Shown one piece after another: positions 21,511 through 47,427 of a stretch of 57,435 nucleotides of DNA. Origin of the DNA: Candidatus Omnitrophota bacterium (GTDB lineage: Bacteria; Ratteibacteria; UBA8468; B48-G9; JAFGKM01); NCBI GenBank assembly GCA_016928555.1, contig JAFGKM010000015.1, positions 1-57,435 on the forward strand, in the 5' to 3' direction. Positions within the stretch are counted from its first letter, which is position 1; each line of letters begins with the position of its first letter. The notes under the pieces are model-generated. The model was not told where the DNA came from. It did not search any database and saw only the letters and a list, made by a program, of their open reading frames with translations. A program made the translations under genes and the position numbers.

Positions 21511-22095
21511 ATGATGGATAACAGGATTTTTGAGATAAGGTGGCACGGAAGAGGCGGGCAGGGAGCGAAAACCGCGGCCCTTCTTTTCGGGGATGCGGCG
21601 CTTTCCACAGGCAAATACATACAGGCGTTTCCCGAATACGGGCCAGAGAGGATGGGGGCGCCGGTGCAGTCATTCAACAGGATAAGCTCCGAACCCATAC
21701 GCCTGCATTCCGGCATTGAAAATCCCGATGTGGTTCTCGTCCTTGACGTCACTCTCATAGGACAGGTGGATGTCACGAAGGGGCTTGATGAGGGAAAAGG
21801 CGTACTTATAGTCAATACCCCGCTTACCGCAGAAGAAATGAAGAAAAAACTGGGTTATGACGGTAAAGTCTGTACGGTGGACGCCTCCGCCATAGCGACC
21901 GATACGATAGGGAAAAACATACCGAACACCCCCATGATAGGGGCTCTTGTAAAGGTAACCGGAATACTCGGCATTGACGAACTGCTGGAAGATACGAAGA
22001 TAAAGCTTGAGAAAAAGTTCAGGAACAGGCCTGAGATAGTTGAAGGAAATCTGAAGGCTATTGAAAGAGCGTATAATGAGGTTAAGGGAGTTTGA
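21511..22095 (+). CDS. porC: Pyruvate:ferredoxin oxidoreductase gamma subunit
   Basis: 194 residues. IRWHGRGGQGAKTAALLFGDAAL is the family's CoA-binding-domain start, and FPEYGPERMGAPVQSF and VLVLDVTLIG follow. In four-subunit enzymes it pairs with alpha, beta and delta subunits to convert pyruvate plus CoA to acetyl-CoA, CO2 and reduced ferredoxin. GGGAGC precedes the ATGATG. It is the first gene of the por operon. Specificity for pyruvate rather than another 2-oxoacid is inferred from the whole gene set. Confidence 0.93.
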   Translation: MMDNRIFEIRWHGRGGQGAKTAALLFGDAALSTGKYIQAFPEYGPERMGAPVQSFNRISSEPIRLHSGIENPDVVLVLDVTLIGQVDVTKGLDEGKGVLIVNTPLTAEEMKKKLGYDGKVCTVDASAIATDTIGKNIPNTPMIGALVKVTGILGIDELLEDTKIKLEKKFRNRPEIVEGNLKAIERAYNEVKGV

Positions 22096-22112
22096 AAAAC
22101 AAGGAGTATAAG

Positions 22113-22415
22113 ATGGAAGAGAAAAAAGCGGCGTGGAAGGAGCTTCCGGAGGGCGATGTTCTGGAAGGCGGTTCCTCTCTTAAATTCAAAACAGGCAACT
22201 GGCGCACAGACAGGCCCGTTCATATCCCGGAAAAATGCATCCACTGTTTTATCTGCTGGATAGCATGTCCTGACGGTGCCGTAAAGGTCAATGCAGAAAC
22301 AGGAAAATTTGAAGAGTTTAACTATGATTATTGCAAGGGCTGCGGAATATGCGCACACGAGTGCCCTAAAGACGCCATAAAAATGGTCAATGAACAGGAG
22401 GTGGACAAGAAATGA
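22113..22415 (+). CDS. porD: Pyruvate:ferredoxin oxidoreductase delta subunit (2[4Fe-4S] ferredoxin)
   Basis: 100 residues. Two ferredoxin motifs, CIHCFICWIACP and CKGCGICAHECP, bind two [4Fe-4S] clusters that pass electrons from the catalytic site to ferredoxin. ATG at 22113 is chosen because AAGGAG precedes it. The gene overlaps the following small gene at ATGA. Confidence 0.94.
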   Translation: MEEKKAAWKELPEGDVLEGGSSLKFKTGNWRTDRPVHIPEKCIHCFICWIACPDGAVKVNAETGKFEEFNYDYCKGCGICAHECPKDAIKMVNEQEVDKK

Positions 22416-22687
22416 AAAAATCCATTGTAAAATTTCTGGTGGTTATTCTCATCCTGTCGGGATGGGTCGCTTTCGCGATACTTTATGCTTTATCGGGAAA
22501 GAGTAATGCGCAGAAAGAGATAGAAATTTCCGAACTGCAGTCCGAGCTGGATTCTTACAGGTTTCTCGCAAAGGATGTTAAGGAAAGCACTGAGAGGATA
22601 GACAGCATCATAGGCAATCTGGAAAACCTGAAGGCAAATCTCGGGGAACTGCAAAACAAAATAGTAAATCAGCAGATTGAAGAGTAA
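22412..22687 (+). CDS. Small single-pass membrane protein with coiled coil, inside the por operon
   Basis: 91 residues of unknown family. An N-terminal hydrophobic helix (IVKFLVVILILSGWVAFAILYAL) is followed by a heptad-rich segment (EIEISELQSELDSYRFLAKD, then IDSIIGNLENLKANLGELQ) predicted to be a coiled coil. ATGA overlap with porD shows co-translation. It lies between porD and porA, where no such subunit is normally found, and could tether the complex to the membrane. That role is only a guess. Confidence 0.75.
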   Translation: MKKSIVKFLVVILILSGWVAFAILYALSGKSNAQKEIEISELQSELDSYRFLAKDVKESTERIDSIIGNLENLKANLGELQNKIVNQQIEE

Positions 22688-22728
22688 AACAAATTACTTT
22701 ATTGTCGGGGTAAAGGGAGAGAAGGAAA

Positions 22729-23916
22729 ATGAAAGCAGCGAAAACAGGGAATGAAGCATTTGCTGAGGCGATGCGGCAGATAAACCCGGACGTGGTTGCC
22801 GCCTACCCCATAACGCCCGCCACCGAAGTGGTTCAGATATTTTCTCAGTTTGTTGCGGACGGGCTTGTGAAAACGGAATTTGTGGCGGTGGAAAGCGAGC
22901 ACAGCGCGATGAGCGCATGCATCGGAGCAAGCGCCGCAGGAGCAAGGGCGATGACCGGCACGTCTTCCCAGGGGCTTGCGCTCATGTGGGAGATGCTTTA
23001 TATAGCGGGAGGGCTGCGCCTGCCCATCGTCATGGCGGTTGTGAACAGGGCTTTGTCCTCTCCAATAAACATACACTGCGACCACTCCGATTCCATAGGT
23101 GCAAGGGATTCCGGATGGATACAGCTTTTTTCCGAGAACGTGCAGGAGGCGTACGACAACATCATACAGGCGGTAAGAATAGCGGAGCATCCCGATGTGA
23201 ACCTTCCCATTATGGCTACAACGGACGGTTTTATACTCAGCCACTGCCTTGAGACGCTTGATATGCTTTCCGATGAAGATGTCCGCAGTTTTGTGGGAGA
23301 TATCCCCGAGAGGTCAACCCTTGTGAAGAGTTTGAGGGAAGGCAAGCCCATAACCCTGGGCGCTCTGGACCTGCAGGACTACTACTTTGAACATAAGCGG
23401 CAGTCGGCGGAAGGTATGTTTAACGCAATGAAAGTCATCCCGGAAATCGGCAAGGAATTTGCTAAAACATTCGGAAGGGAATACGGTTTTTTTGAGGCGT
23501 ACAAGCTTGCAGATGCCGATGCGGCAATCCTTGTTATGGGTTCAACTTCCGGAACGGCAAAAGACGTTGTTGACACTATGCGCGCGGAAGGGAAAAAAGT
23601 GGGGCTTGTGAAACTGCGCGTTTACAGGCCGTTCCCGGCACAGATGCTGGCTCAGGCGCTCTCGGGGATAAAAGCTCTGGGAATCATGGACAGGGCGGAA
23701 GGCATGAGTGCGGTATCGGGTCCGGTGTACCCTGAGATATGCGCGGCTCTTTACGACCTTCCCGGCAAAAAGCCGGTTGTTCAGGACTATATCTACGGCC
23801 TTGGCGGACGGGATGTTTCTCTGAATGATATCAGGTATATATTTGATGAGGTTCTTAAATCCGCTCAAACAGGCAAAAAAGCATATACTTTGAAATACGT
23901 AGGCGTAAGGGAATAG
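22729..23916 (+). CDS. porA: Pyruvate:ferredoxin oxidoreductase alpha subunit
   Basis: 395 residues, family length. The N-terminal pyrimidine-binding domain has the signature AYPITPATEVVQIFSQF and EFVAVESEHSAMSACIGASAAGARAMTGTSSQGLA. The second domain has ILVMGSTSGTAKDVVD and VGLVKLRVYRPFP. Together with PorB it forms the thiamine diphosphate site. AGAGAAGGA precedes the ATG. It follows the small membrane gene by 41 bases. Confidence 0.95.
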   Translation: MKAAKTGNEAFAEAMRQINPDVVAAYPITPATEVVQIFSQFVADGLVKTEFVAVESEHSAMSACIGASAAGARAMTGTSSQGLALMWEMLYIAGGLRLPIVMAVVNRALSSPINIHCDHSDSIGARDSGWIQLFSENVQEAYDNIIQAVRIAEHPDVNLPIMATTDGFILSHCLETLDMLSDEDVRSFVGDIPERSTLVKSLREGKPITLGALDLQDYYFEHKRQSAEGMFNAMKVIPEIGKEFAKTFGREYGFFEAYKLADADAAILVMGSTSGTAKDVVDTMRAEGKKVGLVKLRVYRPFPAQMLAQALSGIKALGIMDRAEGMSAVSGPVYPEICAALYDLPGKKPVVQDYIYGLGGRDVSLNDIRYIFDEVLKSAQTGKKAYTLKYVGVRE

Positions 23917-23926
23917 CGATGTTTTT

Positions 23927-23962
23927 CGCCGCATAAATGTAGCGGTGCGATTTATCGCACGG
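23927..23962. repeat. Partial copy of the cloverleaf repeat, upstream of porB
   Basis: Shares TGTAGCGGTGCGATTTATCGC with the element at 9789-9843 and retains the GTGCGAT/ATCGCAC hairpin and a GCCGCATAAAT half. It sits between porA and porB and leaves the GGAGG of porB free. Confidence 0.75.
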
Positions 23963-23984
23963 TTTTTAACTGGAGGATTAAAAA

Positions 23985-26003
23985 ATGCCGACTTTGAAAC
24001 AACTTGCAAAAAGAGAAGAAAAATTTGTATCGGGCCACCGTTTGTGCGCCGGCTGCGGAGAGGGCATTGTCGCGAGGATGGTCATGCTTGCCATAGACAA
24101 GCCGGTTATCGTGGGAAATGCGACCGGTTGTCTGGAGGTTGCAAGCACTATCTTCCCATATTCGGCATGGAACGTTCCGTGGGTTCACACCGCCTTTGAA
24201 AACGTTGCGGCTACGGTAAGCGGCGTTGAAGCTGCCTACAGGGTTTTGAAAAAGCAGGGGAAGATAGACAAAGATGCGGTTTTTGTGGCATTCGGCGGCG
24301 ACGGCGGAACCTATGACATAGGACTTCAGTCTCTTTCCGGCGCGGCCGAAAGGGGACATAAGATGCTTTACGTATGCTGTAACAACCAGGCATACATGAA
24401 TTGTTTGAGCGCCGATTCTCTTATAATGACCAAGGAAGGCCTTAAGAAAATAACAGAAATAAAACAAGGAGAATCAGTTTACGCTTTTGACCAGCAAAAT
24501 TACCAGTTGGTTGTAAAAAAATGCACTGGTGTTTTTGATAACGGAATAAAGCCCGTTTATGAACTTAAGACTCTGCATCACTCAATAAAAGCAACAGACA
24601 ATCATCCTTTTCTAATTCTGAAAAGAAACGGAAAAGGGAAAGAGAACAATTTTGTCTGGAAAAAATTGCGTGAGATTAAAACAGGAGATGAAGTCGTCGT
24701 TTTGAAAAACATAAATCCAGGGCGAACTGCTGATTTTATTTTTACAAAAGTTACCACAGACGATTATAAAGTAAATAGACTCAATGATATCAATATCCCC
24801 GGACATTCCAGTCCTGACTTAATGAAATATCTGGGCCTGTATGTCGGAGATGGATGGGTAAGGAGCGAAAGGGGAGAGGTAGGTTTTGCTCTGCCAGAAA
24901 ACAGCAAGGGTCGGGAAATCTTAATAAATCTCCATACCAAAATTTTTGGTGAAAGTTTAAGAACAGATGAAGTGTATATATATATCAATTCTGTAAATTT
25001 GGCAAGATTTATTGACTCTTTAGGTTTTGGTAAAGGAGCAAAAAACAAGATTATTCCGCAATGGCTCTTCACTTTGCCGTTAGAAGAAAGAGAAAGTTTT
25101 ATTGATGGATTAATGTTGTCTGACGGATATAGAACAGGAAATAGTTGCCGGTATGTTTCTGCAAGCGCTGAGCTGTTAAGCCGCCTTAGGGTTTTGCTCC
25201 AAATTACCAATTACAGGGTGGGAAATATCCATTGGCAAAGCAAAGAAAAAGGAACAAAGTGTGTAGACAGAGAATTTCTGAAAGATGCAAAATATGGATA
25301 TATATGTTTTAGCAAAAAGAATAAATGGAATATAGAGAAATACAGGCAGCAATACAGGCATAGAAATTTCTTAATAGAAAACAAATATTTTGACGTGGAA
25401 AAAGTAAAAAGCATAAAACTGGTCGGAGATGAACCTACTCTTGACTTACGAGTTGAAGGCGAACATAATTTCATCGCTGACGGAATAGTCGTTCATAACA
25501 CCGGCATTCAGCGCTCGTCGGCAACGCCCAAAGCGGCGCACACGACAACCTCTCCGCTGGGCAAGGTTATCCCGGGCAAGGTGCAGTTTCCCAAGGATGT
25601 CGCATCAATAATGGTAGCGCACAACATACCCTATGTTGCAACCTCAATCCCCGGCCGGTGGAACGACCTTGTAAACAAGGTTGAAAAGGCTGTTTCCTTT
25701 GACGGCTTTACCTTCATTGACGTGCTTACCCCATGCCGTCTCGGCTGGCCCCATGAACCGGAACTCACGATGGAGATTTCAAGGGTTGCCGCCGATACCT
25801 GCATCTGGCCCCTTTACGAGGTTGCGGAAGGGAAATACAAATTAACCTATAAGCCGAAAGAGAAGAAACCCGTTGTCGAATGGTTCAAGATGCAGAGAAG
25901 GTTTGCCCATCTTTTGAAGCCGGAGAATCAGGAACTTCTGGAAAACATACAGAAAGAGGTTGACAGGAGATGGGATATACTTCTCAAAAAATGTGAGGGG
26001 TAA
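23985..26003 (+). CDS. porB: Pyruvate:ferredoxin oxidoreductase beta subunit containing an intein
   Basis: 672 residues as translated; splicing of the 366-residue insert gives 306, the usual length for PorB. The N-extein (1-139) has the cluster Cys pair LCAGCGEG (C21, C24) and the thiamine diphosphate motif FGGDGGTYDIG (D106) with CCNNQAYMN. The C-extein continues TGIQRSSATPKAAHTT, the exact continuation expected of the active-site loop. TGGAGG precedes the ATG. It is followed four bases later by cstA. The unspliced chain would have its cofactor loop interrupted, so activity of the main pyruvate-oxidising enzyme should depend on protein splicing. Confidence 0.96.
   Translation: MPTLKQLAKREEKFVSGHRLCAGCGEGIVARMVMLAIDKPVIVGNATGCLEVASTIFPYSAWNVPWVHTAFENVAATVSGVEAAYRVLKKQGKIDKDAVFVAFGGDGGTYDIGLQSLSGAAERGHKMLYVCCNNQAYMNCLSADSLIMTKEGLKKITEIKQGESVYAFDQQNYQLVVKKCTGVFDNGIKPVYELKTLHHSIKATDNHPFLILKRNGKGKENNFVWKKLREIKTGDEVVVLKNINPGRTADFIFTKVTTDDYKVNRLNDINIPGHSSPDLMKYLGLYVGDGWVRSERGEVGFALPENSKGREILINLHTKIFGESLRTDEVYIYINSVNLARFIDSLGFGKGAKNKIIPQWLFTLPLEERESFIDGLMLSDGYRTGNSCRYVSASAELLSRLRVLLQITNYRVGNIHWQSKEKGTKCVDREFLKDAKYGYICFSKKNKWNIEKYRQQYRHRNFLIENKYFDVEKVKSIKLVGDEPTLDLRVEGEHNFIADGIVVHNTGIQRSSATPKAAHTTTSPLGKVIPGKVQFPKDVASIMVAHNIPYVATSIPGRWNDLVNKVEKAVSFDGFTFIDVLTPCRLGWPHEPELTMEISRVAADTCIWPLYEVAEGKYKLTYKPKEKKPVVEWFKMQRRFAHLLKPENQELLENIQKEVDRRWDILLKKCEG
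24402..25499 (+). mobile_element. Intein with LAGLIDADG homing endonuclease in PorB
   Basis: 366 residues from Cys1 (CLSADSLIMT) to the terminal His365-Asn366 (GIVVHN), with Thr as first C-extein residue. Block B has T65-D-N-H68 (KATDNHPFLIL) and block F is VEGEHNFIADG. Both endonuclease motifs keep their acidic residues: YLGLYVGDGW (142-152, D150) and FIDGLMLSDGYR (233-244, D241). All expected class 1 splicing residues are seen, so it should be active in splicing and perhaps in homing. The stretch is visibly richer in A and T than the flanking exteins, which suggests recent arrival from another genome. Confidence 0.96.
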
Positions 26004-26007
26004 CACA

Positions 26008-27648
26008 ATGAATTCCCTTCTGCTGGTGGGTATTTCACTGCTCCTTTTTGTTCTTGCATACCGTTTTTACGGCCGCTTCCTGGAAAGGATATGGGATGTA
26101 TCCGCAGACAGGAAAACCCCGGTGGCGGAAAAACAGGACGGTGTTGATTACATTCCCGCCAAACACTGGACGATACTCTTCGGACACCACTTTGCCTCAA
26201 TCGCGGGAGCAGGACCCATCCTGGGCCCGGTTATCGCCTGCATGCTTTGGGGCTGGCTTCCCGCGGCGGTCTGGATTATCTGCGGCTCCATTTTGCTCGG
26301 AGGTGTGCATGACTTCTCTTCCCTGGTTTTGAGCCTGCGGCATAAAGGCAGGTCTGTTGGAGAAATTACCGAGTCAGTCATGGGACGCAGAAGCAGAATA
26401 CTGTTTTCCCTGTTCATCTGGTTCACTCTGATACTTGTGGTGGCGGTTTTTGCCTCGGTCACGGCAAATACGTTTGTTCAGGAACAGGCGATAGTCATTC
26501 CGACGTTCGGCCTGATACTTATATCCCTGCTCTTTGGTTTTCTTGTTTACCGTCTTAACTGCAACTACATATATGCAACGCTCGGAGCCCTTGTTCTTCT
26601 GGCATTTTTATTTGTACTCGGCAATAAATTCCCGGTTTCTTTTACCGTCGCCGAACCCTTAAAACTCTGGATAATCGTACTTCTGGTATATTCTTTCATA
26701 GCAAGTATTATACCGGTCAATCTTCTGCTTCAGCCGAGAGACTACCTCTCTTCATTCATATTGATCGCAGGCCTTGTACTCGGATATGCGGGGCTTTTTA
26801 CCGCAAGGCCATCGGTAAACGCTCCCGCATTCATAGCTTTTTCCGCCGCCGGGCAGAAAGGAACCCTCTGGCCCATGATGTTTGTAATAATTGCATGCGG
26901 GGCCATAAGCGGATTTCACAGCCTTGTCGCAAGCGGGACTACTTCAAAGCAGATAACAAGCGAGAAGGATGCAAGAAAAATCAGTTATGGAGGAATGCTT
27001 ACAGAGGGGGTTCTTTCCATACTTGCACTGCTCTGCGTTTGCGCAGGGCTTTACTGGAACAATGCCGGTTCCGCGCTGAACTATCCCGAACTGATGGCGG
27101 GGGGCAACTGGATAGGAACTTTTGCAACCGGCTACGGGCAGGTAGTCTCAAGAATTCTGGACCCTGAAGTCGGCAAGATGCTTGCAATCGTGATGATAAA
27201 TGCTTTCGTTCTGACAACACTTGACACGGCCACAAGGATTACCAGATATATTTCCCATGAGCTTTTCGGCGAGAGCTGGAACATCAAAATATTCAGGAAC
27301 AGGTACTTTAACACTTTTTCCGTCGTGCTTATAGCCGGCTGGCTTGCATTCGGCAACTGGCAGAAGATATGGCCTGTATTCGGAGCCGCCAACCAGCTTG
27401 TAGCCGCCATAGCCCTTTTTGTTGCGGGGCTGTTTTTGCTGGGAAGACAGAAAAAGAGTTCACTGACGGCCTTCCTGCCCGCATTGTTCATGTTCCTCAC
27501 CACAATCGCCGCTTTGGTTTATCAGGCAAATGGGTTCTACCGCAGCAAGAACTTCCTTCTCGGCAATATCGCGATTCTGCTGACTGTCCTTGCAGCTTTT
27601 GTCATAGTAGAAGGCCTCCGCACAATCCGCAGTTTAAAAAAATCCTGA
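26008..27648 (+). CDS. cstA: CstA-family transporter
   Basis: 546 residues with more than a dozen hydrophobic segments. Family signatures are YIPAKHWTILFGHHFASIAGAGPILGP, GGVHDFSSL and GAISGFHSLVASGTTSKQ. It is shorter than E. coli CstA (about 700) and lacks the long C-terminal part. Members import pyruvate or peptides. The gene begins four bases after porB, the beta subunit of the enzyme that consumes pyruvate, so pyruvate uptake is the most economical reading. GAGGGG precedes the ATG. Confidence 0.9.
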   Translation: MNSLLLVGISLLLFVLAYRFYGRFLERIWDVSADRKTPVAEKQDGVDYIPAKHWTILFGHHFASIAGAGPILGPVIACMLWGWLPAAVWIICGSILLGGVHDFSSLVLSLRHKGRSVGEITESVMGRRSRILFSLFIWFTLILVVAVFASVTANTFVQEQAIVIPTFGLILISLLFGFLVYRLNCNYIYATLGALVLLAFLFVLGNKFPVSFTVAEPLKLWIIVLLVYSFIASIIPVNLLLQPRDYLSSFILIAGLVLGYAGLFTARPSVNAPAFIAFSAAGQKGTLWPMMFVIIACGAISGFHSLVASGTTSKQITSEKDARKISYGGMLTEGVLSILALLCVCAGLYWNNAGSALNYPELMAGGNWIGTFATGYGQVVSRILDPEVGKMLAIVMINAFVLTTLDTATRITRYISHELFGESWNIKIFRNRYFNTFSVVLIAGWLAFGNWQKIWPVFGAANQLVAAIALFVAGLFLLGRQKKSSLTAFLPALFMFLTTIAALVYQANGFYRSKNFLLGNIAILLTVLAAFVIVEGLRTIRSLKKS

Positions 27649-32943: not shown

Positions 32944-34014
32944 TTAAAATCTTAAATTTCTGATGCGGTCCAGATAATATTTGTAATTCTCCAGTGATGT
33001 CCCCGGTGTTATCAGATGGTCGGGGAGGATGACAAAACCTCCTTCCTTCATCAGTGGTAATCTCCGTTCTATTTCATCATCTATTGCCTTGCGTCCTTTT
33101 TCCAGAACAAGCTTGTTGAATCCTCCGAATATCCTCAATTCTTTGCCGTATGTTCTCCTTAAAAGCATGGGGTTGGCATTCCATGTGCCTATCTCTATGG
33201 GAAACTGCAGGTTAACTCCCGCGTCGAGCCATGGCTTTATCAGCGGTTCCACCTTGCCGTCGCTGTCCAGCCCGAGGAGTTTCACTCCGCATTCTTCCAG
33301 CTTGTTTCTTATCTTGATATACCCTGGAGCCACGCATTTCTTAAAAATGGACGGGCTGACGAAAGGGCCGGTACTTCCGGCGATATCTTCCCACCCCATT
33401 CCGAAATCCGGCTTTGTTTTCATCTTCGGTATGACCTGGTTTATCCCCCAGCATACGAGGTTTGAAATAGTATCCACCATATCTGAAAAAACATCCTGGT
33501 CGTCATACATCAGGTATGCCATATTCTCAACGCCCATCCAATTCCTTATCCAGCCCATCATGGAGCCGGTGCCTATGCATATCGGCAGCCCGGAGTTTTC
33601 CGCTTTCTCTATGTGCTGTTCAATATCCGGAGGTATTCGCCCGGGGTTAGGCTGGAGCCTTTTCTTGTATATATCCCAATCTCTGGCTGTCTTAAGCGTA
33701 AAATCTATATAATGCGGGATATTGCTCTTTTTCAGCCATGCTTTCTGTACCACGCCGTCAACTGCCCTGAATATCTTGTATTCTTCAGTCTCTTCTATCA
33801 CTTCTTCTTCAAATAACGGAAAAAGTCCGACAGGGACTCCTACGGCTGACCATATATAGGGGGCGTTGAAATATTCGTTTTCGTCCGCATCTTCAGGCAT
33901 GCCCTCGCTTATCCACCTGTCCCTTGTTTCCGGCCAGCCCTTCCAGTGCATGACGGGCATCCTGTCATACTCCCGGTAAAACATGATGTTTTGCCACAAT
34001 TCGCGAGTAGTCAT
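32944..34014 (-). CDS. UroD-family protein (methyltransferase-like), paralogue 1
   Basis: 356 residues with the uroporphyrinogen-decarboxylase fold, seen as alternating segments such as PDFGMGWEDIAGSTGPFVSP and KLLGLDSDGKVEPLI. In place of the HxC zinc motif of MtaA/MtbA there is LDSDG. True UroD motifs for the porphyrin arginines were not found, so heme synthesis is unlikely. AAGGAGA precedes the ATG. Proteins of this class are often linked to corrinoid methyl transfer or to glycan loci in anaerobes. Confidence 0.82.
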   Translation of the reverse strand: MTTRELWQNIMFYREYDRMPVMHWKGWPETRDRWISEGMPEDADENEYFNAPYIWSAVGVPVGLFPLFEEEVIEETEEYKIFRAVDGVVQKAWLKKSNIPHYIDFTLKTARDWDIYKKRLQPNPGRIPPDIEQHIEKAENSGLPICIGTGSMMGWIRNWMGVENMAYLMYDDQDVFSDMVDTISNLVCWGINQVIPKMKTKPDFGMGWEDIAGSTGPFVSPSIFKKCVAPGYIKIRNKLEECGVKLLGLDSDGKVEPLIKPWLDAGVNLQFPIEIGTWNANPMLLRRTYGKELRIFGGFNKLVLEKGRKAIDDEIERRLPLMKEGGFVILPDHLITPGTSLENYKYYLDRIRNLRF

Positions 34015-34047
34015 TATGCGGGTCTCCTTTTCTTCTATGCAGAATTA

Positions 34048-35451
34048 TTATTGCGCTTCTGTTATTATTGCGCCTTTCTTTTCCGCTCTTTTCAAAGCCT
34101 GTTTCTGCGAGGCGTCCAGCATCTCTGCCATGGGAACATAAATCTCTTCAAATCTGCTGATATCTTCAGGCCATCTGTTGTCAAAAAGAACCTCAAAGGG
34201 GATGTTCTTCTCCCATAAATCACCGCATATGTTGATAAACCGCTTGTAATATTCATCGTTGCCCGGGCCAAGGCGGTTGCGGATTTTAGAAGAAAAAACC
34301 ACAGCTTTTTCCCCGTCAGGCCACCGGGGATTTTGGGCCTGCGGATACCCGTCTTTGAGTATCTCCTCCTCGGAGATTTCAATCTCATCGCGGACCATGC
34401 GGCATACCCACGGACGGGCGCCTACGCGGTTTATCATTTTCAACCAGGGAACAAAATCTTCCGGTTTCCTTCCGTAGCAAATTACAATACATTCCTTACC
34501 TTGCAGTTTTGCCAGAGAACGTGCTGCACATAATTCGGACACGACCCGGTTTTTATCCTTTAAAGGGTCGCATCCGTGGTAAATTTCCACGAATACAGCA
34601 TCGGAATAATCTATCTTGTGTTCATAAGAGTTGCCCTGGACACAGACATGAGGCATAAGATTTACACACTGGCACGACCAGAGCAGAATGTTTTCCGGGA
34701 GAACTTTTCTCAAATTTTCGTAGAATCCGCCCACCCATCTGAACCGCGCCTCAATCCATGACTGGAAGTCAGGATTATCAAGGTTCTCCCAGAATGTCTT
34801 ATCGGAAATATCAGGTATGTCCAAACCTGTTTCCTTTTTGAATCTCGCCCGGCAATGCCGACATGTGCATGAGTAAAAATCCGGGAGGAATGCCGCGTCA
34901 TCCGCCATCAGGGCGTCGATGCCGGTATTTTCAACAAGCTCTGCTGTATATTCACAGTAACTTTTCAGAAAATCAGGGTTATTGGGACAGAAAAGTTCCA
35001 TCCGGTAACCTTCGTAGTATATGGGCTTGTTATCTTTTGCCGAGACCATTCTCCAGTCCTTCATCACACGACCTCTGTAAATCTGCTGTTCCCACGAATC
35101 AGGGAACAATGGGAGATGATGGTTTTGCCACCGGTTGATTATCTGCCTGTCATCCATATTTCGCGCCCGGTGGACAAAAACCGCGCTGTGATGGTCGGCA
35201 ACTTTGATGCCGTGTCTGTGACAGATAGCAGCAGTCTCTTTTAATATTCCCTCGACCCGTTTGAAGTACGGCAGAAAATCCCATCGGGGATGAAAGCCAA
35301 AAATGATTACCGCGTTAACCCCTGCCCTTGCAAGGATTTCTGCCCTTTTTTCCCACTTCTCCGTTATTGAAGGAAGAGGCCAGCGCAGGTCTTCCCACGT
35401 CAGCCACCAGGAAGCAAATCTGGCTTCCGATAGCCATGTTTTTTTATCCAT
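34048..35451 (-). CDS. Probable TIM-barrel glycosidase-like protein
   Basis: 467 residues, not assigned to a numbered family. Segments such as RAEILARAGVNAVIIFGF, CHRHGIKVADHHSAV and TGIDALMADDAAFLPDFYSC resemble the barrel of glycoside hydrolases. A CTCRHCRARF motif (Cys-x-Cys-x2-Cys) follows, often seen in barrel proteins of this kind. No signal peptide. ATG at 35451 follows GTGGAG. It sits between two UroD paralogues. Confidence 0.7.
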   Translation of the reverse strand: MDKKTWLSEARFASWWLTWEDLRWPLPSITEKWEKRAEILARAGVNAVIIFGFHPRWDFLPYFKRVEGILKETAAICHRHGIKVADHHSAVFVHRARNMDDRQIINRWQNHHLPLFPDSWEQQIYRGRVMKDWRMVSAKDNKPIYYEGYRMELFCPNNPDFLKSYCEYTAELVENTGIDALMADDAAFLPDFYSCTCRHCRARFKKETGLDIPDISDKTFWENLDNPDFQSWIEARFRWVGGFYENLRKVLPENILLWSCQCVNLMPHVCVQGNSYEHKIDYSDAVFVEIYHGCDPLKDKNRVVSELCAARSLAKLQGKECIVICYGRKPEDFVPWLKMINRVGARPWVCRMVRDEIEISEEEILKDGYPQAQNPRWPDGEKAVVFSSKIRNRLGPGNDEYYKRFINICGDLWEKNIPFEVLFDNRWPEDISRFEEIYVPMAEMLDASQKQALKRAEKKGAIITEAQ

Positions 35452-35474
35452 ATAAACTCCACTGTCGTTAATAT

Positions 35475-36533
35475 TCAATCGAACCAGTATGTGCGAAATT
35501 CTTCAAATGCCGAGCATACCGCCTCTATGTTTTCAGGGGGCGTCGGCGGGTAAATGTCTGCCAGCATCTCCAGTCCGCCCTGAGGAGAGCCAAGCCGCAT
35601 GAATTCCTCCTTTATTAATTCTCTTATCTCGTTGGGTTTTCCGAAAGGCACTATCTTCTGGCGGTCAACATCAAGGCGGATTGTAATGCGTCCCTTAAGT
35701 TCGCGTTCAATGTTATCAAGACCGTTGCAGAGGTCCTGGAGGTTCAACACGCTGACGCCTGCGTCAATCAGCATGTCAACCAGTTCCATAATGTATCCGT
35801 CGCTGTGCATGGATACATATGTGTTCTGTTTGCGGCAAAAGCCGAACATCCGGCGGTAATGCGGCAGTATCCATTTTTCAAACATTGCAGGACGGATGAT
35901 GGAAGCCGTCTGGCTTCCGAGGTCTTCTCCGAACCACATAACGTCAAGCCCGTATAAAAGCTGTTTTTTTATGGATGTGATGTTGTGCTGAAGGACAATA
36001 GTAATAAGCCGATGCAGTTCCGGCCTTTCTTCAAGCATGTCAAACATGAGGTTTTCAAAACCACGAAGGTACTGCAAACGCATAAAGAAAAAGCCGTGGG
36101 GGAGGCCGCCGGCAACAACCTGGTTATTATGTCTTTGTTTCGTAAAAGCCTTTTCCCTTTCCTTCCAGTTTGCCGGACCTCTGTCTGCCTGCACGAGAGG
36201 GTCGGGGGCGCTGTACGAGTCAAGCTCTTTCCAGTCATTTATGGGATGACCTGTTACCACTCCTTCAATGCCGGTTACAGCAGTTTCCCATGTGCATCCC
36301 CATGCATCTGTAAAAGGCTTTCCTGTTCCATGGCCGGGAAAATAAGTTAAGTTGTCGTAATCAATAGTTCCTTTTTTATAGCGGGGGAATAATGATGGAT
36401 GCCGAAGGACAACTTCTTCAAGGTCGTCTCTGAGGTAGTCCCATGCCGCCGGGGAAAGCGCTACATGGCAGGGTGTCCATTCCGAACCGCTCATTGCAAC
36501 ATTCCGAATAAAATTCTCTTTTTCTGTAAGCAT
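35475..36533 (-). CDS. UroD-family protein, paralogue 2
   Basis: 352 residues of UroD fold (LRGFENLMFDMLEERPELHRLI, GLDVMWFGEDLGSQTASIIRP, YVSMHSDGYIMELVDMLID). MHSDG stands where MtaA-like enzymes have HxC. AAGAAGG lies ahead of the ATG at 36533. Same operon as paralogues 1 and 3. Confidence 0.82.
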   Translation of the reverse strand: MLTEKENFIRNVAMSGSEWTPCHVALSPAAWDYLRDDLEEVVLRHPSLFPRYKKGTIDYDNLTYFPGHGTGKPFTDAWGCTWETAVTGIEGVVTGHPINDWKELDSYSAPDPLVQADRGPANWKEREKAFTKQRHNNQVVAGGLPHGFFFMRLQYLRGFENLMFDMLEERPELHRLITIVLQHNITSIKKQLLYGLDVMWFGEDLGSQTASIIRPAMFEKWILPHYRRMFGFCRKQNTYVSMHSDGYIMELVDMLIDAGVSVLNLQDLCNGLDNIERELKGRITIRLDVDRQKIVPFGKPNEIRELIKEEFMRLGSPQGGLEMLADIYPPTPPENIEAVCSAFEEFRTYWFD

Positions 36534-36543
36534 ACAAACCTTC

Positions 36544-37608
36544 TTATCGGCAGTATTCCTCAAGTTCTTTCATGAAACGTTCAGCTTCCTTTTTGGAGGT
36601 TATGGTGGTTTCTCCAAAAATAAGTTTGCGGGATTTATATTCCCTCCATAATTGTTTTATCCGCTCCGAGCTTTCTGCCAGAATTTGTCCCTTGCCCAGA
36701 TTGTCAATCTTCTTATACAGGCCGGACCAGTTTTGTTCCATGGGATTGCCGGCGCCCTGTACCCATTGGATTACGTCTATCCTCTTAATTTTGCAGATTT
36801 CCTCAATATGTTTTACGGCGCCCGGACCGTCGAGGTGATACTCCGCGGCATCAAGGATTGCACACTGTCGTTCCATGCAGGGGACTACGAATTCCCTGAA
36901 CATCTCCGGGCTTATCATGCAGGAGGTATCGCACTGGACTACGTCTATCCGCCCCTCGCAGTACAGACCGTGGCGGTTTATGCTGCCGAACTCTTCAAAC
37001 CCGAGCTCTACGGCCAGCGCTTCCATTATTTCGGCATAAGCAATGCATACCTGGTCAAGTGCACGGTGAATCTTTTCAGGGCAAAGAACCATATCCATGA
37101 GGAGATTGTTTGCTCCGCGGACGGCCGCCAGTGCGTCTATGTTGGCGCATAATGTAGGGGCGGCAATAAGGAGTTTGCCGTCGCATCTTTTTCTGAGCGC
37201 TCTCGCAAAGGCAACTGTCCGCTTCCACCAGAAACTTTCCCGCCTGAAAGCAATTTCAGTTTCGTCCCAGTCTTTGACAAAAGGCTGGCACCAGCTCGTG
37301 CCCGGATTTTCGGGGTCAAATTTAAGGTCTGCTCCCAGGAGGGCGGAAAAATGGTCCGGTCCGAATTCAAGGTAATAAAAGGGGATTGCCTCGCCTATGA
37401 ACTCGTGTGTTGCCGCCCATGCCAGAAGCCGGTCAATCACCGGTTCAAAGTTACCGTCTGCTCCGGAAGTATAAGGCGGTCTCTTCACGGGGGTCACCCC
37501 TTCCCTGGGCATACTCATGCATACAATAGGGCGATTGTTCTCCCCTTTCCAGAATGCGCGCCACTGCTTCTGTACTTCTTCGAAATCCGGCTTGAATTCC
37601 AGTTTCAT
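36544..37608 (-). CDS. UroD-family protein, paralogue 3
   Basis: 354 residues; a divergent member with GADLKFDPENPGTSWCQPF, CDTSCMISPEMFREFVVP and EYHLDGPGAVKHIEEI. The candidate metal site reads YHLDG. Its start overlaps the GH31 stop (ATGA), so translation is coupled. It differs from the other two enough that a separate substrate or partner is likely. Confidence 0.8.
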   Translation of the reverse strand: MKLEFKPDFEEVQKQWRAFWKGENNRPIVCMSMPREGVTPVKRPPYTSGADGNFEPVIDRLLAWAATHEFIGEAIPFYYLEFGPDHFSALLGADLKFDPENPGTSWCQPFVKDWDETEIAFRRESFWWKRTVAFARALRKRCDGKLLIAAPTLCANIDALAAVRGANNLLMDMVLCPEKIHRALDQVCIAYAEIMEALAVELGFEEFGSINRHGLYCEGRIDVVQCDTSCMISPEMFREFVVPCMERQCAILDAAEYHLDGPGAVKHIEEICKIKRIDVIQWVQGAGNPMEQNWSGLYKKIDNLGKGQILAESSERIKQLWREYKSRKLIFGETTITSKKEAERFMKELEEYCR

Positions 37609-39711: not shown

Positions 39712-42700
39712 TTAAAAAGAAACAACGGAATTGAGGTACCCGGCAACGAAAGCCGCCTGAAGTCCTGCTGTTTTCTCGTTAGGATGAACGGCGTCAATGA
39801 AGATATCTTCGCCCAGATTTGCCGTGAAGGCATATAAGTCCAAAACAGGAATATCCAGCTCCTTCATCACCTTGTCCGCGATACCGTTGTAAAGAACCAC
39901 GTCTGAATCATAACGTGATGTTTTCAATTCATCGGGTATGCCGGCCCTTTCTTTCACCGGCGTTGTGCGCACCCATATCAGTGATGCCCCCATGTCTTTG
40001 ACGATGGAGTATATTTCACGGAGATTTTTTTCATAATCCTCCGGGGAAACCTGGTATGTTTTGGAGATTGCATCTCTCTTTATATCATGCAGGCCGCAGT
40101 TGAGAAGAACATAGTCGGGTTTGTAAATATTTTTTTCTTTAACGGCACGGAGGTATTTCAGCACCATGGAGCTGTCTCCGCCGTTTGTTCCGTCAGTCCC
40201 GTCAACGATATCCGTGAATTTGTGTTTTCCTCCCTTCCTGTCATACTCCCACATATCTTTCAGCATTCCTTCCAGATGGCGTCCGTAGTAACATGATATG
40301 CTGTCGCCTATGACAAACACCGATTTCTTGTTCAATGTTGCCTCCTTTTTTTCTTCGGTTCCGTTTAGTTTTTCAAGTTCCATATCGTCAAACCACAGCG
40401 TTCCTTCTCCGCCTCCGGCAGACAGCGTCAGACAGAGACGGACAGCGCCGGTAGGAACTACTGTCGTAACGGATGTTTTGTTCCAATCCCGGGTGCCCGG
40501 TAAAACTTCCGAACGTTCCGCCTGCTTCGGAGTTACTGACGTATTTCTTTCGTCCCTGAAAGAAATGTCAATCTTAGGGCGTATCTTCTCTCCTTCCGCC
40601 TTCACCCATACTGTAAACGTATACTTTTCTCCCGTGGCCACTCTCGGCAAACGTGAACCGTTGGGAGCGAAGCGGTGTGTGGTCCAATAAGGCCCTTCTA
40701 CTAATGTAGCTGGTTGGATAACCCTGAGAGAGTATGTTCCGCTGCGAGTTACATCATAATCTTTGGCAAGGGATTCTTTTTCAGGGGAGACGTAGTTGCC
40801 CCAGTGATAGGGCTCCCAGTAGCCCAGTTTTTCAATGGACGGGTTGGAAGGCCTTTGCGTTTCCATTATCGCAACGGTTGTATGTGAAATCGCTGCAGGC
40901 ACGGTAAATTGCTCCCATGACGACCATTGCCCGTATTGTCCTGTCAGGACGTTTTTCGGCCTGACCCGCCATCCATAGGATTTTCCCGGGGACAGAAGTA
41001 CATCCGGCTGATACAGATTGGCGGGAACATCCTTTTTGCTGAAAACTTCCTTCTTTGAGGAACTTTCCATGCATTCAACGTCGTAGGCGGCAAGCGAACC
41101 CGCATTGTCCCTCCACCTTAAGACGGGGCGGAGCGATGCCGGCTTAATCTCGCGGCTCGGTGAAACAGGTTTAGGGGATGACGGTGAAAAAATCCCGGAT
41201 TTGCATAGATAGAGAACCTTTACGCTGTAAGGTGCTGCATAAACGGATATTTCGGCGGGGTTTTTAATAACCTTCTTGCTCCAGTAATCAACGGCTGTCA
41301 TATCCGCAGGTACCTGGATGTTTCTGACAACAATCGTTTTTCCCTTCTCCTCCTCGTTGAAAACGAAAATCAGCCTCTCCCCGCCGCAGGTAAGAACCGA
41401 CACCTCGGGCAGGAGAGTGCCTGATTCAGATACCGCCAGGCTGTCCTCTCTCCTGAAAGAAAGGAAGAACTTTTCAAAATCCTCTGCTACGGCGGCTGCG
41501 CGCGATGCCGCCATACATACGCGCCCGTCCAGCATGTCAAAAAAAACCATGTATGCACCCATGTCCGTCAGGCGCCTGAAGATATTTGTTTCGGCGGCTT
41601 CAAACTGGTAATCTTTGCCCGACACGAATTCTCCGCCATACATCCTCTTTTCCATCCCAACGGCTTTGCGCGTGCGCTCGTAATCGCCCCTTCCATATCC
41701 GCATCCGGCAACATCAACGTATTTTCCGAAGTATCTCCAGTCTACCCCGTAATGTTCAGTATTATCTCTCTGGTATCCGCTGTAACTGCTGAAGATGCAG
41801 TCAGGGTTTGCTTTCTTTATTGCGCCGCGGTACAGACTGAGAATTTCGCCGTTCTGCCAGCACCGGAAGTCTATCCATTCTTCACGGTAGTCCTTCAGTA
41901 TTTTTTCAGGCGTCAGCGCAACATTCTCAGGGATCTTTTTTTCACTGCGGAACATCTCTATGTTTCTTTCCGAGTAGCCCGGAGCAGAAGGGTCAAGGAT
42001 TCCGAACTCATAATCAATCGTCAGGTCGTCATAAACCTTCGCCATTTTTGCAAACAGGGTAGATGCTTCCTTTATGAAGGATGATATCCCGTACATCAGT
42101 CCGGGAAGGGCGACTGCGTTTACGGTCTTCCCGGAGATTGTTTTCTCGGCTTCTTCGGGATGAGAGGCGAGGTATTCCGCCGCTCCCGGGAAACCGGTTG
42201 TTGCGCTCAGTATGGGCAGCATTTTCTCTAACTTAAAACCGTATTCTTTAAAAAGTCTGCGGTAATTAGGGGTGTTTATCGACAGAGCCGTATGCATCGT
42301 GTTGAATCCGGAATCCCGCCATTTGGCCAGCAGTATGTGTTGTTCGGCTTCGCTCAACTGGGAGAGTTCAAAATGCGGCCACCATGCCCATAGAATGGTA
42401 AGTATCTCCGAAGGCTTTTTCCCGAGCAGGGGAGGCAGTATTCTGACAGGCAGGCTCTGCTCTTCTTCTTCAAAAAACGGCTGTTGTATGGATGCCTGGT
42501 AGTATATGAAGTCGTTCCCATTTGCGTGCCCGGCTCCAACAACTTTAAACATAAGGGGAACAGGCAGTATGTCCCACTCGGGGTCATCCGCCAGCGATAC
42601 GGCGTTTCTATCAAAAATGAAATTATACCGGCGGTATTTCTGTGCTTCCCTGACAGTCTCCTCTTCGGAAAAGGATATGGGGCTGATACAGTTTCTCTGA

Positions 42701-44451
42701 TATCCGGGGTTTATCAGAGAAAGATAGTGCGGTACCTCCATGGTGAAGCTGACCCGGGATAATTCATTCTCCTTCAGAGAGCTTTTCAGGGTGAGGGTGA
42801 CTTTTTCCGCTGTTTCCTCCGCGGCGTACAGGCCGGTAAGAGGCAGAAGCGAAGAAGAATTGGGTTGTAAATGGGATAATCGGCTGGAAACAGGCAACAC
42901 CTCGGCTTTTGTCATGAAACGCAGGCGGGGAGAGGCATACAGGGTGGTTCCCCCGGCCATGATGGAATATCTTATTTCGGGAGAGACTTCTTTTGCCGCC
43001 TTGCTGATATCTCCCGATACGGATATGGTTTCTCTTGCGCCCGCCGCCACGGTTTTTGCGAAATTTTCCGTCATTTCAGTGCCGTCGGGGTATTTGATTG
43101 TCAAAGGGAATTCCGCGTTGATATTAACGCCGGTGTTGTTGAAAAACTGAATCTCGGTTTTGGCGATGCCTGACGATGAAAACGACAAGGAAGACTGGGT
43201 TATTCCCGTGGTTTCTTTGACAAACATCAGGTAGCCGAAACTTTCAGGGCTGTGAAATCCGGTAACAGGAACAGGCGCCCAACTGCTGTATTCCTGGACA
43301 GGCTGGCGCGAACGCGCAAGGTTCACCCTCCATATCCGGCCTTCGGCAGGCGCTGAGACTCCCAGCGCTGAAAAAGGGATACTAAGCTCAATTGTCCATT
43401 TATACTTGCCCTCATGATAAACTTTTGCCGCGGCTTTAACAGGCGCATTCCATCCTGAAGGGTTTTCTTTCCCGATTGCATCATATACGGTGCCCAGGCT
43501 GTTTGCCGCAATATGATAATACTGGTTGCTTTCCTCCGGTTGAAGGAAAACTTCCACTATGTCTTCAAAAAAAATGCGGGAATCGCGTATCTTTGATTCC
43601 GCCTTGAATCTCTCCATCTGATTGAGTTTCGGGTCAAGGTACGGCTCCTCGCAGGAGAAGGCGATATAGAAACTTTCGTTGTTGTATGTCACTATTGAGT
43701 GCGTTGAGGCGGCGGCAGGCCCTTTCTCTCCCATGAGCTGAAAGCTTGAGCATTCAATGCTGTTTTCCCAGCATGCGTCGTTCAGGTTCCCGTCAATAAC
43801 CGGCGGACTGGCAGCGGCCGGCGCACAAAAAAAAGGTATCGCGGACGTATTTCCGGATACAGGAGCTTTCTCCGGAGTGAAGAATGCATCGTCAAGGTAC
43901 ACCGTGCCCGCGTCTTTCAGCTGAAAATCTATCCGTATGTGGGCCGTATTTTCCGGGACGTCAACGTCTAGAGAAAAAGACTGCCAGCTTTCCGTCTCCT
44001 TGAGGTTGAATCTTTGTCTTGTCGGCGAGGGACTTGCAACCGGTTTCCAATCCGAATCGGTAAATCCGACAGAGATTTCAAATACAGAGTTGGCCTCCTT
44101 TCCTTCAAGCCGCACGTTGATACCTGCGGTATATTTCCCCGACGCCGGTACAGCGATCGGCCTTGGCGTATTGCACCATACCCCCACGTGCCCTTTTTTC
44201 CTGACGGTAATCTTGAGTGCTGCAGAGTTATTCTTTCCGGCATCCGGAACCCATAACTCTTCGGTGTCCGGTTTTTCCCCGCCGGGCGCCCATGACCAAT
44301 TTCCCCATCCAAACGGTTTTCCGTCCTTCACCTCTTCAAAACCGGAATTGACGGCATAGTTTTTGGTTTCGGCCGATACTGTAAAACAGGAAGAGGCAGT
44401 AAAGAGAGTTGCAAGAAGAACAGAGACAAAAAACACTCTTTTTCCCAACAT
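39712..44451 (-). CDS. Giant secreted multidomain carbohydrate-active protein with SGNH hydrolase domain
   Basis: 1579 residues. A signal peptide ends near residue 27 (VSA/ET). Domains in order: a CBM4/9-like jelly roll (about 30-200), a CBM9-like domain (from SPPVIDGNLNDACW, about 215-410), beta-rich linkers, a barrel-like region from LTILWAWWPHFE, a fibronectin-III-like domain, a second CBM4/9-like domain and a C-terminal SGNH domain (about 1376-1579). The SGNH residues are visible: GDSIS, GTNGGDSS, LNCGLHD and DAVHPN. The last domain probably removes acetyl or other ester groups while the rest binds and cuts the glycan. AAGGAG precedes the ATG at 44451. Confidence 0.85.
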   Translation of the reverse strand: MLGKRVFFVSVLLATLFTASSCFTVSAETKNYAVNSGFEEVKDGKPFGWGNWSWAPGGEKPDTEELWVPDAGKNNSAALKITVRKKGHVGVWCNTPRPIAVPASGKYTAGINVRLEGKEANSVFEISVGFTDSDWKPVASPSPTRQRFNLKETESWQSFSLDVDVPENTAHIRIDFQLKDAGTVYLDDAFFTPEKAPVSGNTSAIPFFCAPAAASPPVIDGNLNDACWENSIECSSFQLMGEKGPAAASTHSIVTYNNESFYIAFSCEEPYLDPKLNQMERFKAESKIRDSRIFFEDIVEVFLQPEESNQYYHIAANSLGTVYDAIGKENPSGWNAPVKAAAKVYHEGKYKWTIELSIPFSALGVSAPAEGRIWRVNLARSRQPVQEYSSWAPVPVTGFHSPESFGYLMFVKETTGITQSSLSFSSSGIAKTEIQFFNNTGVNINAEFPLTIKYPDGTEMTENFAKTVAAGARETISVSGDISKAAKEVSPEIRYSIMAGGTTLYASPRLRFMTKAEVLPVSSRLSHLQPNSSSLLPLTGLYAAEETAEKVTLTLKSSLKENELSRVSFTMEVPHYLSLINPGYQRNCISPISFSEEETVREAQKYRRYNFIFDRNAVSLADDPEWDILPVPLMFKVVGAGHANGNDFIYYQASIQQPFFEEEEQSLPVRILPPLLGKKPSEILTILWAWWPHFELSQLSEAEQHILLAKWRDSGFNTMHTALSINTPNYRRLFKEYGFKLEKMLPILSATTGFPGAAEYLASHPEEAEKTISGKTVNAVALPGLMYGISSFIKEASTLFAKMAKVYDDLTIDYEFGILDPSAPGYSERNIEMFRSEKKIPENVALTPEKILKDYREEWIDFRCWQNGEILSLYRGAIKKANPDCIFSSYSGYQRDNTEHYGVDWRYFGKYVDVAGCGYGRGDYERTRKAVGMEKRMYGGEFVSGKDYQFEAAETNIFRRLTDMGAYMVFFDMLDGRVCMAASRAAAVAEDFEKFFLSFRREDSLAVSESGTLLPEVSVLTCGGERLIFVFNEEEKGKTIVVRNIQVPADMTAVDYWSKKVIKNPAEISVYAAPYSVKVLYLCKSGIFSPSSPKPVSPSREIKPASLRPVLRWRDNAGSLAAYDVECMESSSKKEVFSKKDVPANLYQPDVLLSPGKSYGWRVRPKNVLTGQYGQWSSWEQFTVPAAISHTTVAIMETQRPSNPSIEKLGYWEPYHWGNYVSPEKESLAKDYDVTRSGTYSLRVIQPATLVEGPYWTTHRFAPNGSRLPRVATGEKYTFTVWVKAEGEKIRPKIDISFRDERNTSVTPKQAERSEVLPGTRDWNKTSVTTVVPTGAVRLCLTLSAGGGEGTLWFDDMELEKLNGTEEKKEATLNKKSVFVIGDSISCYYGRHLEGMLKDMWEYDRKGGKHKFTDIVDGTDGTNGGDSSMVLKYLRAVKEKNIYKPDYVLLNCGLHDIKRDAISKTYQVSPEDYEKNLREIYSIVKDMGASLIWVRTTPVKERAGIPDELKTSRYDSDVVLYNGIADKVMKELDIPVLDLYAFTANLGEDIFIDAVHPNEKTAGLQAAFVAGYLNSVVSF

Positions 44452-44495
44452 TGATGAGCTCCTTTTAATAATAATCATATTCCATGGTTATTCTT

Positions 44496-46235
44496 TTAAT
44501 CTTTTTCCGCCCGCAAAAACGGGATGATGATGTAATCGCCCCTTTTTGCGAGGTGCGGATTGACGCGTATCCCCCCCGTCCACTCCCGCGCCATATAATA
44601 AAGTTTTATGTCAAAGGTCTGTTTCTTCCCGGCCCCCAGCATTTTTTTCAGGTTATATGCACGGTATCCGGCAGTTCCTACTTCCGAAGTCTCTATCGGT
44701 ATTGTCCGTCCCGTCTCTTTGTGTATTGCCTTTACAAATACAGTTGCGGGAGAACCGGTTTTTATAACGTCCCACGAAAGATAAGGGAAACTGTCCAGTT
44801 CTATCGTTACGTTGCGTACAATAATATGCGCCCAGTTATTCTCCGCGTTAACCCATGTGCCCCGGGCGTTGCGCATGACCAGTATGCCTCCGGGTACTTC
44901 GGCCAGCGCGTAATAGCAGGAATTTTTCTGGGTGGTGCCGTCCATATAGTCTTCAAGGTCCCATTTGCAGCATGACGGCGCAAGTTCCATATATTCTTCG
45001 CGTCCCGTCTTCTGCCTGTGGCCTTGGAAAGAAAGTTGTCCGGTTTTTTCCGCCGTCTTCCGTTTTGCCGCCCAGTCTTTTTTTGCGTGTGCGAGCGCGG
45101 CGCGCGACTCCGCTGGAGAAAAACCGTCTGTTACGTTCGGAGTGTTCAATTTAGGCCTTTTAAAAACAGATGGAATATTATTTGAAAACTCGCCGAAATT
45201 TGCCTCGAAGCGAAAGCTCAGCATGCCGGGCTTTGCTATGAAATAACTTTCAGGGGAAATTTGTTCAGATACCATTACCGGCGGCACTCCCGTAAGCGTA
45301 CAGCCGTGGATATCTATCAGGTTGGGGATTTCCTCGCAGTATACCGCGCACCGGCGTTTGGCATTGCCGAGCGCGCATACGGCGCATCCGTCAAGGATAA
45401 TATACGGCTCGCGGGAACCGCAGATCTGCGGAACGTGCCTGGCGAAATTCACTACCGGAGTGAATCCGGCTTCCTCTCCACCAAACCGCACGCTTCGGCA
45501 GGCCAGCGCTCCGTGGTTGTCTATCCAGCGCTGGTCGCGGCCGTTTACCATCGGCACACAGCACAGGTTGCTCACCGTCATCTCGCCGTTTGCGCTGTTG
45601 ACAAGCATCGCTCCGTCTCCGCTGCAGCCGCCGGTCAGCCATCCTTCCCGGATGTGGTTAAAGTCCGCCGAGGTTACCACTCCCTGTTCGCATCCAACTA
45701 TCTGGCACCTTAGAACCATAAGCATGGTTGAATAGCTGTGGTCGCGCACATGGATAGCCGTCGCCGCACTTTCGTAAAACTTGCAGTCCTCTATGAGCAG
45801 AAGGCCGTTGTCCTCATTGTTATTGCCGATATTCAGGTGTGTGCGTCCGCCGTGGAACGACAGGCACCGGAATGTCTGGCGGATGGAATTATCGCCGTAA
45901 ATTATATCCTGCTTTTTATTTTTCTGCTCTATCCACGGGTGTCCCTCTCCCCGCAGGGCAAGGGTTTTGCGCGTCAGCAGATGTGCGGTGATTGTATAGT
46001 GCCCGTGCGGGAAAAACACTTCTGGTCCGGTGGAGTGGCAGTGGTATCCAGCCCTTGAAGGTATGCCGTTCGGGTAGGAAATCTTCTCGGTATCCTGCCG
46101 CGTCATTACTGCTTCGGAAGCGGCATCAAGAGCGGCCTGGATAGCGAGTGTGTCGTCGCTCCGGCCGTCACCTTTAGCCCCGAAATACCGCACGTTCAGA
46201 CTGCCCGTATACGTCATTGATTTTTTATTTTTCAT
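44496..46235 (-). CDS. Pectate-lyase-superfamily beta-helix protein
   Basis: 579 residues. The start NVRYFGAKGDGRSDDTLAIQAALDAA is the signature of the pectate lyase 3-type right-handed beta-helix. Successive strands follow (RCLSFHGGRTHLNIGNNNED, VRDHSYSTMLMVLRCQIVGCEQG). No signal peptide is seen, unusual for such an enzyme. It overlaps the next gene upstream by four bases. It may be a lyase or hydrolase on polysaccharide; the catalytic residues could not be pinpointed. Confidence 0.8.
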   Translation of the reverse strand: MKNKKSMTYTGSLNVRYFGAKGDGRSDDTLAIQAALDAASEAVMTRQDTEKISYPNGIPSRAGYHCHSTGPEVFFPHGHYTITAHLLTRKTLALRGEGHPWIEQKNKKQDIIYGDNSIRQTFRCLSFHGGRTHLNIGNNNEDNGLLLIEDCKFYESAATAIHVRDHSYSTMLMVLRCQIVGCEQGVVTSADFNHIREGWLTGGCSGDGAMLVNSANGEMTVSNLCCVPMVNGRDQRWIDNHGALACRSVRFGGEEAGFTPVVNFARHVPQICGSREPYIILDGCAVCALGNAKRRCAVYCEEIPNLIDIHGCTLTGVPPVMVSEQISPESYFIAKPGMLSFRFEANFGEFSNNIPSVFKRPKLNTPNVTDGFSPAESRAALAHAKKDWAAKRKTAEKTGQLSFQGHRQKTGREEYMELAPSCCKWDLEDYMDGTTQKNSCYYALAEVPGGILVMRNARGTWVNAENNWAHIIVRNVTIELDSFPYLSWDVIKTGSPATVFVKAIHKETGRTIPIETSEVGTAGYRAYNLKKMLGAGKKQTFDIKLYYMAREWTGGIRVNPHLAKRGDYIIIPFLRAEKD

Positions 46236-47323: not shown

Positions 47324-47427
47324 CCTGTCTTCTCCTTTTTCGCCCTGCGCGGTACGAGGTTCTGGTTTCTGTTTATTTTTTTGATATGTATTTAAATGGC
47401 GAGAAATAACTGTATAAGTTTTTTCAA

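Follow-up and report, generated by a model that had tools for sequence, protein, structure and literature searches.

A predicted class 1-type intein at the same porB codon junction in bacteria and archaea

Results and discussion

The porB gene of an Omnitrophota bacterium carries an in-frame insert

The DNA analyzed here (hereafter the window) is a 57,435-nucleotide stretch of contig JAFGKM010000015.1 from a Candidatus Omnitrophota bacterium. It includes a porG-porD-porA-porB operon (porGDAB) for pyruvate:ferredoxin oxidoreductase (PFOR) at positions 21511-26003 of the forward strand. The last gene, porB, is a single open reading frame for 672 amino acids, of which residues 140-505 form an insert that begins with Cys-Leu-Ser, ends with His-Asn and is followed by Thr. 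The operon and the parts of porB are as follows.

21511-22095 (+): porG, gamma subunit with a POR domain (PF01558, E 1e-41; TIGR02175 over cut-off)
22092-22415 (+): porD, 2x[4Fe-4S] ferredoxin-like delta subunit (Fer4 families; TIGR02179 over cut-off)
22729-23916 (+): porA, alpha subunit (PF01855, E 1.9e-74; PF17147)
23985-26003 (+): porB precursor (N-extein, intein and C-extein), 672 aa; PRK11865 PorB matches in two stretches flanking the insert
23985-24401 (+): N-extein, 139 aa, ending in CNNQAYMN; the last residue, Asn139, was placed by alignment to 7plm and 1b0p
24402-25499 (+): PorB intein, 366 aa; Cys1 codon at 24402-24404, last Asn codon at 25497-25499
24522-24524 (+): codon of Cys41, from alignments
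24594-24605 (+): block B, T65-D-N-H68; T65, N67 and H68 invariant among 20 aligned PorB inteins
24714-25379 (+): predicted homing endonuclease region, approximately residues 105-326 of the intein, from the alignment with mini-inteins, which lack it
24831-24857 (+): LAGLIDADG-type motif 1, LGLYVGDGW
25107-25130 (+): LAGLIDADG-type motif 2, GLMLSDGY
25443-25499 (+): blocks F and G, D348LRVEGEHNFIADGIVVHN366 (TIGR01443); D348, H355, H365 and N366 invariant
25500-26003 (+): C-extein, 167 aa, Thr(+1)-GIQRS, from the open frame and the PorB alignment; Thr(+1) codon at 25500-25502

The gene directly after porB (25960-27648) is CstA-like, of a pyruvate transporter family, and the same gene order is found in a congener. 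Elsewhere in the window, three URO-D-family genes lie close together on the reverse strand (32947-37608) beside genes for very large carbohydrate-binding proteins (39715-50574, also reverse), an arrangement that resembles a methyltransferase and polysaccharide neighbourhood.

An earlier note, made from the letters of the window, had described the insert as an intein in the active-site loop of PorB, and this identification is backed by every test run, whether by profiles, by fold or by homologues at the same site. The insert matches the Intein_splicing profile PF14890 (E 4.9e-19, above the curated cut-off) and the N-terminal and C-terminal intein regions TIGR01445 and TIGR01443 (NCBIfam, over curated cut-offs), while PF14528 (LAGLIDADG_3), with a score of 22.8 bits, exceeds its cut-off of 22.5 only marginally. 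With 20 homologues as input, AlphaFold gave a model with a mean pLDDT of 88.9, and in Foldseek searches of the PDB the best match of this model is the endonuclease-bearing TliVMA intein (E 1.7e-24), with PI-PkoII, PI-SceI and I-DmoI among the further fold matches. Such agreement far exceeds chance.

The insert also has the make-up of a class 1 intein: a Hint splicing domain by profile and the residues Cys1, TDNH, His365-Asn366 and Thr(+1), all retained in 22/22 complete homologues (as TxNH, with x variable). Both of its LAGLIDADG motifs contain acidic residues, and the fold agrees with that of LAGLIDADG homing endonucleases. Its start at Cys, its end at HN before Thr and its span of 366 residues (24402-25499) are exactly those first described, and block B, block F and both LAGLIDADG-type motifs recognized at that time are present. 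The insert is in frame, and homologues with an empty site exist. Its removal leaves the normal 306-residue PorB that had been expected, as evident from a gapless alignment across the junction to solved beta subunits of PFOR and oxalate oxidoreductase (OOR) (9bt4, E 2.5e-81). The GC content of the intein is 0.36, versus 0.51 for the exteins. No other intein and no second close PorB were found in the genome, which is 94% complete. These data confirm, at the level of sequence, that porB contains, in frame at positions 24402-25499 of the forward strand, a predicted class 1-type intein that is complete at 366 residues and includes a LAGLIDADG endonuclease.

The insertion site falls at the substrate pocket

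The intein is predicted to split the substrate pocket of PorB between Asn139 and Thr. Asn139 aligns with Asn996 of the Desulfovibrio africanus PFOR, a pocket residue that rotates on pyruvate binding (PMC5020499). The earlier note was correct in placing the break between YMN and TGIQRS in the active site, but it assigned this Asn to the thiamine diphosphate (ThDP) site. The Asn that binds the metal in the ThDP motif is a different one: the Mg-binding residue is Asn134, five residues upstream (Asn118 and Leu123 for the two positions in Sulfolobus numbering). Because the residue preceding the intein is the equivalent of a substrate-pocket Asn, the unspliced precursor should be inactive.

The same codon junction is occupied in two domains of life

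Inserts at this site in other PorB homologues, which the earlier note had proposed to look for, do exist. A genome-wide scan first matched records of Candidatus Iainarchaeum and Aerophobetes, and a phylum-level follow-up gave the occupancy counts. Among the genomes searched, the site is occupied in 27 (10 bacterial and 17 archaeal), by inteins in full, degenerating and mini forms; 22 of these are complete and five are cut by contig ends. Bacterial carriers belong to the phylum of the window genome (3/35 genomes) and to Aerophobota (Aerophobetes, 7/17), whereas archaeal carriers belong to Iainarchaeota, the phylum of Ca. Iainarchaeum (11/87), and to two further phyla (4/28 and 2/29). As a check on domain, ribosomal protein S28e was found in 8/8 archaeal carriers tested and in 0/6 bacterial ones. 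No further case of the PorB intein was found in broad samples of other bacteria.

All 22 complete cases have the junction YMN|C...HN|TG[x]Q, with YQN in a single host, and each has Cys1 and Thr(+1). Seventeen are full length (361-372 aa) and five are mini-inteins (157-173 aa). In the window phylum, the three carriers are the window genome, a congener (G001, DYKC01000035.1) and a family member (G014) with a mini-intein of 158 aa; most relatives have an empty site with an uninterrupted YMN-TG junction. The congener, whose genome comes from another project, has an intein at the same codon that is 85% identical to that of the window.

Every stage of a homing cycle is represented among the related genomes, from full inteins through mutated, partly deleted and mini forms to the empty site. 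The window intein keeps the Asp in both endonuclease motifs, whereas the Asp of motif 1 is replaced by Asn in the congener and in the archaeal genome G240, and in G042, an Aerophobetes genome, an internal segment of the endonuclease has been deleted. Three groups in the tree join mini-inteins to full-length relatives (G014 and the window genus, support 98/96; G131 and G132; G395 and G804), so the endonuclease has been lost several times. Between window and congener the endonuclease region has a dN of 0.093 and a dS of 0.99 (dN/dS of approximately 0.09). Given the Asn in motif 1 of the congener, homing in the window genus may already be waning.

A homing element as the best explanation

The series matches the homing cycle known for inteins (PMC8966425). 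We consider it highly probable that the PorB intein is a class 1-type allele bearing a homing endonuclease, present at the same porB codon junction in at least two bacterial and at least three archaeal phyla, and that it has spread by homing. From these features we infer splicing, DNA cutting and homing in the following form. In the precursor, the catalytic loop would be split between Asn139 and Thr; Cys1 would act as the first nucleophile and Thr(+1) as the acceptor, and cyclization of Asn366 would release the intein to yield the 306-residue PorB. At the DNA level, porB genes that lack the intein would be cleaved by the LAGLIDADG domain at the conserved YMN|TG junction, and an occupied allele, even one acquired from a distant organism, would serve as the template for repair of the break. 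With the site filled, the endonuclease would be free to decay by Asp to Asn change, internal deletion and reduction to a mini-intein. Splicing would be retained throughout because PorB needs it.

Cys41 and the possibility of a redox switch

A distinctive residue of the PorB intein is Cys41, located between blocks A and B. It is invariant in 26/26 PorB inteins that cover the position, whereas nearly all other inteins carry Val, Ile, Tyr or Ala there, mostly Val; a Cys at this position was encountered in 1/19 cellular alignments (with a low score) and in 0/33 viral contexts. Of the mini-inteins, all but one (G129, G130, G131 and G395, out of five) have no cysteines other than Cys1 and Cys41. The earlier note had speculated that splicing might serve as a metabolic switch governed by redox state, and our analyses returned no direct support for this view.

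The redox trap of the Pyrococcus abyssi MoaA intein relies on an N-extein Cys, which lies at position -3 and pairs with Cys1. This type of trap can be ruled out for PorB, as position -3 is Tyr in the window and in all homologues checked; a Cys at position -9 of the N-extein is missing in several archaeal hosts. Cys41, whose invariance was unexpected, nevertheless makes a redox role conceivable. In the Mycobacterium smegmatis DnaBi1 intein, the redox disulfide involves a non-catalytic Cys that is internal to the intein and lies between blocks A and B (PMC6195587); a trap of this type pairs such a Cys with the catalytic one. By analogy, the intein could be a retained regulatory switch in which the inactive precursor undergoes redox-gated splicing, for example through a Cys1-Cys41 disulfide, such that PFOR becomes active only under reducing conditions. 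The position of Asn139 in the pyruvate pocket, the restriction of Cys41 largely to this allele and the cysteine content of the mini-inteins all speak for such an arrangement. However, the intein is absent from most relatives and is thus dispensable for regulation; hosts that depend on PFOR are probably anaerobic; and Cys41 may equally be structural. We therefore regard a retained switch as unlikely.

A bolder form of the proposal is a redox valve common to bacteria and archaea, in which an oxidized Cys1-Cys41 pair would keep the split active site closed and reducing conditions would permit splicing. This idea, too, seems improbable, but if true it would account for the invariance of Cys41 in the PorB allele only, including mini-inteins that have stopped homing. 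The presence of Cys41 renders the redox question directly testable.

Intein and host trees conflict

The intein evolves faster than its host within the genus, as evident by the identities between window and congener (85% for the intein and 91% for the PorB extein). Between phyla the order is reversed: the mean identity of intein and PorB is 70% and 62%, respectively, for the window genus versus Aerophobota, and 58% and 48% versus Iainarchaeota. The intein is more similar than PorB in 25 of the 26 window-archaea pairs.

The trees of intein and host also conflict. In the intein tree, the inteins of the archaeal genomes G240 and G795 lie beside the bacterial ones, split from other archaea with 99/96 support, whereas the extein data reject a grouping of bacteria with G240/G795 (p-AU 1.7e-4). 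Conversely, intein data reject the extein clade that unites G050/G053 with bacteria (p-AU 0.0019). These p values are somewhat optimistic, as the tested groups were chosen after the trees were viewed. Part of the conflict can be mimicked by PorB itself, which is horizontally mobile (G050/G053). Monophyly of the archaeal inteins, examined without the long-branched G397, was neither demonstrated nor rejected by the AU test (p 0.18), and for this reason the trees fix neither the direction nor the number of transfers between domains.

Ancient vertical inheritance, by which a common ancestor carried the PorB intein and most lines lost it, would account for the wide range in two domains and for the identical codon everywhere. 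It is nonetheless very improbable, because the intein is closer than its host between phyla and less close within the genus, the trees disagree, and the base composition of the intein departs from that of the exteins. The similarity pattern and the tree conflict fit homing across domains with repeated loss of the endonuclease. A virus or plasmid as the vehicle was set aside: no carrier of an intein close to that of PorB was found among viral contigs, phages and plasmids, whose matches are all distant inteins, and the best viral segments are 37% identical over the matched part, except for one stretch of 48 residues at 46%.

A dead insertion that does not splice, or an assembly error joining two genomes, can be dismissed as extremely improbable even though the genomes are metagenome-derived and splicing is deduced from sequence, given that independent genomes carry the insert at the same codon, every splicing residue is retained with a low dN/dS, and no intact copy of PorB was found elsewhere in the genome. 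An assembly chimera, a concern raised in the earlier note, is ruled out by the shared junction in the congener of a separate project, the mini version in the family member and the empty-site relatives. For the PorB intein, the reading with the best support is that of a mobile element driven by homing, not that of a regulator.

Relation to known inteins

Well-known intein hosts are mostly proteins of DNA replication and repair. No report of PorB, pyruvate synthase or pyruvate/2-oxoacid ferredoxin oxidoreductase as an intein host was found in open-access full text, which agrees with the earlier suspicion that this host and site are little described. Several other inteins were observed in the course of this work. 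One or two each occur in SufB-like proteins (L083, L085, L086 and L092), which come from archaea and, in one case, from a genome of the bacterial sample; an NrdD-like gene (anaerobic ribonucleotide reductase) of the congener has two; an A/V-type ATP synthase catalytic subunit from the bacterial family of the window (G014) has one in its P-loop, with the junction GPFGSGK|C...HN|T; and archaeal polyprenyl synthase-like proteins (L062, L063 and L069) have long ones.

The PorB intein is real and its predicted mechanism ordinary, whereas its host, its site and its spread across domains are unusual: in both bacteria and archaea, one allele interrupts an enzyme of central carbon metabolism at its substrate pocket. 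This distribution fits a selfish element that would have moved between distant branches of life via a metabolic gene. The series thus provides good natural material for the study of homing between bacteria and archaea, and it adds small new mini-inteins with a Thr(+1) junction.

Among characterized systems, the closest in fold are the archaeal VMA inteins (TliVMA, 7qss/7qsu; PhoVMA, 7qst; PMC8966425), which share the Hint domain with a nested two-motif LAGLIDADG endonuclease and span a range from active to degenerate endonucleases that the PorB series appears to parallel. Their host is the catalytic subunit of the V-ATPase, unlike PorB, and sequence identity to the PorB intein is approximately 20%. 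The splicing domain finds its best sequence match in the DnaB inteins (Ssp DnaB, 1mi8; Npu DnaB, 4o1r), but these reside in a replication helicase, have been solved as mini-inteins and, in Ssp DnaB, carry Val at the Cys41 position. By profile score, the closest inteins found outside PorB are those of the archaeal SufB proteins noted above, at approximately 140-200 bits, yet they differ in host and site and lack Cys41. The P. abyssi MoaA intein likewise interrupts an oxidoreductase that is oxygen-labile and belongs to an anaerobe, but its N-extein trap Cys is replaced by Tyr in PorB.
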